Source of the DNA: Gemmatimonadota bacterium
Lineage (GTDB): Bacteria; Gemmatimonadota; Gemmatimonadetes; Longimicrobiales; Gaopeijiaceae
Reading direction: 5' to 3'
Assembly (NCBI GenBank): GCA_028873595.1
Contig: JAPPOV010000014.1
Location: 1 to 64,000, forward strand
DNA: 64,000 nucleotides
Below the pieces are notes generated by a model, which was not told the DNA's origin, ran no database searches, and saw only the letters and a list, made by a program, of their open reading frames with translations. Shown in pieces: positions 27,182 through 28,927 of this stretch. Position numbers and translations under genes: made by a program. The first letter of the stretch is position 1. Every line of letters starts with the position of its first letter.

Positions 27182-27607
27182 ATGCCTACCGTGCGCGTGA
27201 CTCGCCGAGCGCACTTCTGCTCGGCCCACAGACTCTTCCGCGAAGATTGGTCGGAGGAGCGAAACCGAGAGGTCTTCGGTGACTGCTCCAACGTGAACTG
27301 GCACGGACACAACTACATCCTGGATGTGACCGTCGAGGGCCCGGTCAACCCCGAGACGGGGTTCGTCATGGATCTCAAGGCCATCAAGCACGCGATGAAG
27401 GATCGTGTGATCGACGACGTCGATCACCGTAACCTGAACCTCGAAGTTCCGTGGCTCGAGGGAACGATGGCGTCGACGGAGAACTTCGCCGTGGCCATCT
27501 GGGATCGTCTCGCGGACGTGCTCCCCGAGGGGGTCCGGCTTCACAGGGTTTACCTGCAGGAAACACCCAACAATTCCGTAGAGTACCTGGGGCCCGAAGG
27601 GGGCTGA
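27182..27607 (+). CDS. 6-pyruvoyltetrahydropterin synthase, PTPS-II type (Cys-x5-His-Gly-His)
   Basis: A 141-residue zinc enzyme converting 7,8-dihydroneopterin triphosphate. Zinc ligands are His16, His41 and His43; the nucleophile is Cys35 in CSNVNWHGH, i.e. Cys followed by five residues and HGH. This spacing is that of eukaryotic PTPS (tetrahydrobiopterin route), not of QueD (Cys-x3-HGH) or the folate-type PTPS-III (Glu-x2-HGH). [22 protein letters not shown] and E127-TPNNSVEY also match eukaryotic PTPS. ATG 27182 has GGAG upstream. It is 4 nt before folE, with an SDR after that, so a biopterin-like product is likely. Confidence 0.85.
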
Positions 27608-27611
27608 CAAT

Positions 27612-28211
27612 ATGACGTATCAGAGTGGGTCCGACTTGTCCGGAGTCGCTTTCGAGGACCTCGTTGCAGAGATGATCCGCCGGTGCGGCGACACGCCGGA
27701 CCGCGATGGCATGATGAAGACGCCTGAACGCGTGGCCAAGGCAATGGCTTTCCTCACCAAGGGGTACGGGGAGGCCCCCGAGACCGTCGTTGGCGATGCG
27801 ATGTTCTCCGAAAACCACCAGGGCATGGTGCTCGTCAAGGATGTAGAGCTCTACTCGCTTTGTGAGCATCACATGCTTCCGTTTTTCGGAAAGGCGCATG
27901 TTGCGTACATCCCGAACGGCAACGTGATAGGCCTTTCGAAGGTCGCGAGGCTGGTCGAGGTCTACGCGAGACGCTTTCAGGTTCAGGAGCGACTCACTGA
28001 GCAGGTCGCGCAGGCGGTGTGGGAAACGACCAATCCACAGGGCGTCGCCGTCGTGGTCGAGGCTTACCATCTCTGCATGATGATGCGTGGCGTGCAAAAG
28101 CAGAACTCGAAGACGCTGACGTCGGCCATGCGGGGCCTCTTCCTCGAGGACCACCGGACGCGCGACGAATTCATGCGGATGGTGACCAGCACACATCCGA
28201 CGGTTGGATGA
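27612..28211 (+). CDS. folE: GTP cyclohydrolase I
   Basis: A 199-residue enzyme making 7,8-dihydroneopterin triphosphate from GTP, the first step for folate, queuosine and tetrahydrobiopterin. The zinc site is complete: Cys84 and His87 in LCEHHMLPF, and Cys155 in [10 protein letters not shown]. The [13 protein letters not shown] start is [10 protein letters not shown] at 37-46 and the [15 protein letters not shown] motif is intact. It follows PTPS by 4 nt and overlaps the SDR by 4 nt, so it is embedded in the pterin operon. The genome may carry another folE for folate. Confidence 0.95.
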
Positions 28212-28927
28212 CGGAGACCACTCGGCTCGCCGGGCTCACCTGCCTCGTCACTGGCGCGAGTCGCGGAATCGGCCGCGCGAGCGCCATCGCCCTCGCTGAA
28301 CAGGGCGCCAAGGTGTGGGCTATGGCGCGCAGCGGTGACGCACTCCAGGAACTCCAGCGTGAATGCGGTGCGTTACCGATCATTGCCGATCTGATGGACG
28401 ATCATGCCGTCTGGGCAGCGCTCGACGAGGTGGCAGAGTCGAGCGGCGGTGTGCCTGACGTGGCTGTGAACGCGGCGGGTGTGTTTGGCGTTGAAGCGTG
28501 CGAGAGCGAGTCCGTGGCATCGTTCGATGCGCACCTGGCCGTCAATCTGCGGGCGCCCTTTCTCGTGACCCGTGCCCTCCTGCCGGGCATGCTGCAGCGC
28601 GGCTCGGGTCTGGTGATCCACATTGGCTCCGTCGCAGGCCGTAAGGCGTTCCCCGGGAACGGGGCGTACTCGGCATCGAAATTCGGGCTCAGAGGATTCC
28701 ACGAAGTGCTTCTCGAGGAGGTCCGCGGCACTGGCGTGCGGGCATGCTTGATCGAGCCTGCCGCGACCGACACGTCCCTCTGGGACGAGCTCGACCCCGA
28801 TGCCGACCCGAACCTCCCGAACCGGTCGGACATGCTGACGCCCGAGCAGGTAGCTGAGGCCGTCGTCTTCGTCGCCACGCGGCCCGACGGCGTCACCGTG
28901 CCTCATCTCGCGGTGGAGCGCGGCTGA
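28208..28927 (+). CDS. SDR-family oxidoreductase, possible sepiapterin-reductase-like enzyme
   Basis: A 239-residue short-chain dehydrogenase starting in an ATGA overlap with folE. TGASRGIG is at residues 15-22, NAAG near 88-91, Ser141 in IGSVAG and catalytic YSASK at 154-158: the active site is complete. Position directly after PTPS and GTP cyclohydrolase I makes it the natural candidate for the final reduction of 6-pyruvoyl-tetrahydropterin, the role of sepiapterin reductase, itself an SDR. Motifs alone cannot separate that from 3-oxoacyl-ACP reductase activity. Confidence 0.8.

Follow-up and report, generated by a model that had tools for sequence, protein, structure and literature searches.

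Our analysis reveals, in the 3.23 Mb draft genome (94.6% complete) of a Gemmatimonadota bacterium, three consecutive genes for a PTPS-II type 6-pyruvoyltetrahydropterin synthase (PTPS), GTP cyclohydrolase I (FolE) and an SDR, which, to judge from their sequences, probably form a tetrahydrobiopterin (BH4)-type operon (probability about 0.77). Gene identities, signature motif, the place of the PTPS in the tree and the linkage of the genes could be read directly, and no folate-specific or queuosine step was detected after FolE. Of the readings considered, the original prediction that the operon makes biopterin or a related tetrahydropterin has the best support and is likely right; the reactions of the operon, the substrate of the SDR and the use of the product are what we infer, as follows. 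FolE would convert GTP to 7,8-dihydroneopterin triphosphate, from which PTPS-II would form 6-pyruvoyl-tetrahydropterin; the operon SDR would then reduce the side chain to a tetrahydrobiopterin, of unspecified stereochemistry, for which the nitric oxide synthase (NOS) of the same genome would be the best candidate user.

The window, i.e. the whole stretch of 64,000 nucleotides that was analysed, contains the genes as they had first been described (Table 1): a PTPS with Cys35 followed by five residues and His-Gly-His (C35-SNVNW-HGH), GTP cyclohydrolase I 4 nt behind it (27607/27612), and an SDR with an intact YSASK site that starts within an ATGA overlap with FolE. The PF01242 score, the kept gene order and a fused PTPS-FolE frame indicate that the arrangement of the trio is more than chance. 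Loci (L) and genomes (G) are cited below by our own numbers.

Table 1. Coordinates of the operon genes, their diagnostic residues and a FolM/PTR1-like SDR in the window.
Feature	Position	Strand	Basis
PTPS-II type 6-pyruvoyltetrahydropterin synthase, 141 aa	27182..27607	+	ATG at 27182, stop included; PF01242, 119 bits; PDB sequence matches; trees
C35-X5-H41-G-H43 signature of PTPS-II	27284..27310	+	Read from translation; motif definitions in PMC5041015
GTP cyclohydrolase I (FolE), 199 aa	27612..28211	+	Pfam GTP_cyclohydroI, 250 bits; NCBIfam folE, above cut-off; sole PF01227 match in genome
SDR, probable sepiapterin-reductase-type enzyme, 239 aa	28208..28927	+	ATG at 28208; PF00106, 147 bits; clade; AF2 model
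YSASK catalytic site (Y154-K158) of operon SDR	28667..28681	+	Read from translation
Trp192 of operon SDR, at place of Chlorobium sepiapterin reductase Trp196	28781..28783	+	Alignment
FolM/PTR1-like SDR, role uncertain	19692..20444	-	NCBIfam pteridine reductase, below cut-off; TGX3RXG; synteny in genus

With the operon PTPS as query, 274 of 298 Gemmatimonadota genomes gave a match at 1e-5 and 245 a strong match at 1e-28 (hand counts; the stricter threshold for strong PTPS-II was chosen after the data were seen). The order PTPS-FolE-SDR on one strand was found in 18 of 20 neighbourhoods fetched from across the phylum, seven of them from the same genus; the exceptions are L050, without FolE, and L060, without the SDR. 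Among 29 short loci (L007-L035), 21 contain all three genes, four have no FolE beside PTPS (L020, L031, L034, L035), and four have FolE without the SDR (L019, L022, L028 and L024, the last of which ends at a contig edge). The relatives with no FolE next to PTPS (those four and L050) and those with FolE and no SDR (L019, L022, L028, L060) count as evidence against the BH4 reading. In L061, from 8053 onward, PTPS-II and FolE are fused as a single 372-aa open frame, a fusion that, as far as the sequence tells, ties the two steps together. A second PTPS, of the CX3HGH type, adjoins the trio in L022 (427), L028 (2575) and L053 (6630-6983), so that two kinds of PTPS can divide labour; the motif of the second PTPS in L053 reads CERLHGH, a PTPS-I/III hybrid. 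A figure legend in a 2026 review (PMC13259868) describes biopterin as rare in bacteria and archaea. The 245 genomes with strong PTPS-II and the frequent FolE and SDR neighbours suggest that the cofactor is ordinary in Gemmatimonadota.

PTPS-II is defined by CxxxxxHGH, QueD by CxxxHGH and PTPS-III by ExxHGH in PMC5041015, and the CX5HGH motif is kept in every intact Gemmatimonadota PTPS ortholog read (L052 was judged by eye; the PTPS of L051 is interrupted by stops). Human (1.7e-35), rat (8.1e-33) and C. elegans PTPS (9.8e-30) head the PDB sequence matches, the remaining six being at 1.3e-11 or weaker. A PTPS tree had been set beforehand as a possible refutation of the original prediction, and no grouping with QueD emerged: in the 44-row careful tree, four QueD proteins separate from all others with support of 98/100, and a union of the operon PTPS with seven QueD/PTPS-I rows was rejected (AU p=0.024). 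The 162-row quick tree is concordant with this separation (SH-aLRT 93). The PTPS of L080 and L104, each with a stop inside the matched stretch, were dropped from the trees, and three PTPS-I-like Gemmatimonadota rows that stand on the CX5HGH side of the careful tree, on a branch of 3.6, are probably misplaced. The trees bear on QueD; neither contains a true PTPS-III sequence, and that class was judged by motif and by FolK.

It is very improbable that the PTPS acts as QueD and that the FolE-PTPS pair supplies queuosine synthesis. PTPS and QueD are homologous, but the 65.6 bits of the operon PTPS with the NCBIfam QueD model fall under its cut-off of 89.25, and the motif is CX5HGH rather than CX3HGH. 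Some QueC match occurs in 42 of 78 family genomes at 1e-3 (29 above the family cut-off); these matches are weak, however, the best single one reaching 26.8 bits and most lying in long frames that cover under half the profile, and we read them as paralogs or chance. QueC gave no match in any of the five genus genomes searched, this one and four more. The QueD reading was thus rejected on motif, tree and missing partner genes. We give just as little credence to the view that the PTPS replaces FolB as a PTPS-III and that the operon serves folate. FolE is the usual first enzyme of the folate route, which favours this view, as does the failure to find FolB in this genome, the one genome searched for it; yet the operon PTPS reads Val38 (VNWHGH) where PTPS-III has Glu, and the next folate enzyme, FolK, is absent from 8/8 genus genomes, this one included. 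FolK was found in 172 of 298 Gemmatimonadota genomes, so the model works in the phylum, and the PTPS-III reading was rejected on motif and missing FolK. The survey of outlets covered FolB in this genome and FolK and QueC in draft genomes of the genus; within this scope, a single FolE without FolB, FolK or QueC leaves dihydroneopterin triphosphate with no visible route except the operon PTPS.

The label 'eukaryote-type' given to the gene set in the original prediction did not hold, and 'PTPS-II type' describes it better. Although the best PDB matches are animal enzymes, animal PTPS forms a clade of its own in the careful tree (94/96), whereas the operon PTPS nests among Gemmatimonadota (13 rows, 86/94), with Bacteroidota and Ignavibacteriota PTPS outside that clade. 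Horizontal transfer from a eukaryote was ruled out by the nesting of the PTPS within Gemmatimonadota in both trees. A scan of genome contigs for PTPS confirmed 589 loci, of which the 80 most similar to C. elegans PTPS were retained; it returned Bacteroidota, Acidobacteriota, Cyanobacteriota, Chloroflexota, Nitrospinota, Ignavibacteriota, Rhodothermota and others among these 80; CX5HGH relatives are scattered across many bacterial phyla. Outside Gemmatimonadota, the Cys is not absolute: Tyr takes its place in the first copy of L074, and L093 (6001-6408) encodes a PTPS-II ortholog in which the catalytic Cys is replaced by Asp. In the quick tree, the PTPS of two Rickettsiales MAGs (L064, L066) stands with animal PTPS (92); in the careful tree, which includes L064 only, the Rickettsiales PTPS is no longer with the animals, and we put no weight on the grouping. 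A plasmid collection yielded 19 records matching the PTPS, all below 60% identity, the annotated ones being QueD or 6-carboxytetrahydropterin synthase.

An alternative of another kind accepts that FolE and PTPS give 6-pyruvoyl-tetrahydropterin but holds that the operon SDR makes no tetrahydrobiopterin, either because it leaves the side chain half reduced, because it acts on another substrate, or because another SDR, such as that at 20500-21216, carries out the reduction. We consider this unlikely, although several features of the enzyme speak for it. The top PDB match of the operon SDR is 2ehd, and Chlorobium sepiapterin reductase (2bd0) ranks 58th; the two proteins share only 32% identity (95.5 bits), whereas the SDR at 20500-21216, outside the operon, is the better match (34%, 122 bits), which counts against the BH4 reading. 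In the SDR tree, which included no animal sepiapterin reductase, the operon SDR falls (100/99) into one clade with 40 other Gemmatimonadota SDRs that occupy the same gene position, with no clear placement relative to the Chlorobium enzyme; this set did not include L101 (a copy of G229), L059, L061, L062, L098 or several of the short loci. Substrate binding by Chlorobium sepiapterin reductase requires Trp196 and Phe99, according to the structure section of a review (PMC7520308). Neither the C-terminal GD tail of that enzyme nor its Phe99 is kept in the Gemmatimonadota SDRs, the operon SDR included; at the place of Phe99, read in 40 of the 41 proteins, 39 have L, I, V or M and one has Arg.

Against these differences stands the Trp, which the operon SDR has kept and the SDR at 20500-21216 lacks. 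It is present in all 41 aligned Gemmatimonadota SDRs (operon SDR included), in 18/18 rows of alignment A2 (L061 and L062 among them), in 9/9 GD-tailed enzymes of the Chlorobium type (that of Chlorobium itself among them), in 3/3 PTPS-linked SDRs of Chloroflexota/Armatimonadota and in both aligned acidobacterial SDRs near PTPS-FolE, which are the two of eight 'other' SDRs that have it; five divergent SDRs were excluded from the count of the Trp and Phe99 residues. In a small control of 17 SDR-like frames taken from two rhizobial megaplasmids and the present window, four had no aligned YxxxK and were excluded; the Trp occurs in none of the other 13. It is likewise missing from the second SDR that follows the operon in each of L100 and L106. 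Furthermore, GD-tailed enzymes resembling sepiapterin reductase hold the same gene position in Ignavibacteria/Bacteroidetes MAGs, and an SDR of the 20500-21216 type lies near the operon in just 3 of 20 neighbourhoods (L046, L047, L051). The operon SDR also has the complete Ser-Tyr-Lys triad (S141, Y154, K158), and its AF2 model has a pLDDT of 94.4. Since the Trp is kept and GD-tailed enzymes occupy the same position elsewhere, the operon SDR is probably a sepiapterin-reductase-type enzyme, its likeness to the Chlorobium enzyme being otherwise weak.

A BH4 system of this kind is already known from cyanobacteria and Chlorobium, whose pathways, as described in PMC5041015 and PMC3546692, use the same enzyme families and the same PTPS signature. 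In contrast to both, the Gemmatimonadota genes form a tight three-gene operon. All 14 cyanobacterial loci fetched carry two PTPS in tandem with no FolE among the matches, whereas the Gemmatimonadota operon encodes a single PTPS domain; from the Chlorobium system it differs in its SDR, which belongs to another clade and lacks the Chlorobium tail. The gene order PTPS-FolE-SDR also occurs in Bacteroidota/Ignavibacteriota MAG clusters (L073, L080, L093, L096, L100, L106, L123, L133), whose SDR ends in [RK]PxxGD. In two of the 80 named loci (L073, L133), an aromatic amino acid hydroxylase gene lies upstream of PTPS-FolE-SDR, which is evidence for the BH4 reading, and the SDR of both carries the Chlorobium-type tail.

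The search for pterin-dependent hydroxylases advised in the original prediction revealed no aromatic amino acid hydroxylase in this genome, an absence that counts against the BH4 reading, but it led to a NOS instead. Such a hydroxylase occurs in 91 of 298 Gemmatimonadota genomes and in two of eight in the genus; as the sole user of the product it was rejected, being absent from 6/8 genus genomes, this one included. Across the phylum it accompanies strong PTPS-II (86 of 245 genomes, against 5 of the 53 others; Fisher p=1.2e-4, from hand counts at the post hoc threshold of E<=1e-28 and uncorrected for kinship). Pterin carbinolamine dehydratase is present in 13/13 genus genomes, with two copies here, both above an NCBI cut-off for 4a-hydroxytetrahydrobiopterin dehydratase, which favours the BH4 reading. 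Two fatty-acid hydroxylases of this genome match only the ornithine-lipid hydroxylase model, far under its cut-off, and a role for them as alkylglycerol monooxygenase is unsupported.

The NOS gene (G000:C4:13511-14578; PF02898, 482.7 bits) encodes 371 aa, an oxygenase domain without reductase, with 2flq and Bacillus subtilis-type NOS oxygenases as its best PDB matches. The G+C content over 19.5 kb around it is 0.61, compared with 0.63 in the window, and thus gives no sign of contamination. NOS occurs in four of 78 family genomes, namely this one, G153, G100 and G150; its absence from three of the five genus genomes searched means that it cannot be the only use of the operon. These four genomes all contain strong PTPS-II, and three of them have no FolK match, G100 being the exception; G153, G100 and G150 also carry a hydroxylase, unlike the present genome. 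The G153 enzyme shares 64% identity with the one encoded here.

Bacterial NOS is described as using tetrahydrofolate (THF) where mammalian NOS uses BH4, and as having His128 and Ile218 where mammals have Ser and Val (PMC9500659). The activity of Bacillus cereus NOS was raised by THF and not by BH4, and Staphylococcus NOS gained nothing from THF, as reported in PMC3005942. Ser and Val replace His128 and Ile218 here and in G153; G100 and G150 have Gly and Ile there. A third difference, with Asn in bacterial enzymes where mammalian ones have Asp, falls by our own reading at position 248, and there all four NOS have Asn. A bacterial NOS that works with BH4 and not with THF has been described in Synechococcus PCC 7335 (PMC7554344, PMC9500659); it has globin and reductase domains, whereas the enzyme here is oxygenase-only. 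We suggest that the NOS of this genome may use BH4. More tentatively, and at somewhat less than even odds, we propose that BH4, not THF, may be the native pterin of oxygenase-only bacterial NOS in this lineage, on the grounds of a probable dedicated BH4 operon, of no FolB or FolK being seen, and of the mammalian-like Ser and Val in the NOS. Genomes that combine NOS and the operon without FolK would offer a direct test of the pterin of bacterial NOS. Among the papers listed for Gemmatimonadota and tetrahydrobiopterin, none was, by title, about this subject, and among those listed for Gemmatimonadota and nitric oxide synthase none was, by title or opening of the abstract, about a NOS of the phylum. 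The wide presence of the operon-type genes in Gemmatimonadota and the company of NOS in genomes without FolK seem to be new.

A further SDR of the window (Table 1) had been put forward as a PTR1-like recycling enzyme. It carries TGX3RXG, a motif given as specific for pteridine reductases in section 5 of PMC13259868, as TGGAVRIG, and five genus loci have it at a matching position close to the operon; its score with the NCBIfam pteridine reductase model is 229 bits, under the cut-off of 288. However, its YX3K site reads HAVSK, with His for the catalytic Tyr, a substitution that the original prediction had not mentioned, and HX3K was also found in 5/5 genus loci read. The replaced Tyr makes the role doubtful, and recycling cannot be claimed. 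Elsewhere in the window, 21266-22747 encodes a protein that combines a YHYH domain with DUF305. The genome also contains a second PTPS homolog (G000:C51, about 172-178.5 kb; L003 6938-13516), which is SCO6650-like and has HGA instead of HGH. Its neighbours are a Zn-dehydrogenase-like gene, a glycosyltransferase, a RibD_C reductase and a creatininase/MftE-like protein, together with what we read as a probable methyltransferase and two membrane proteins.
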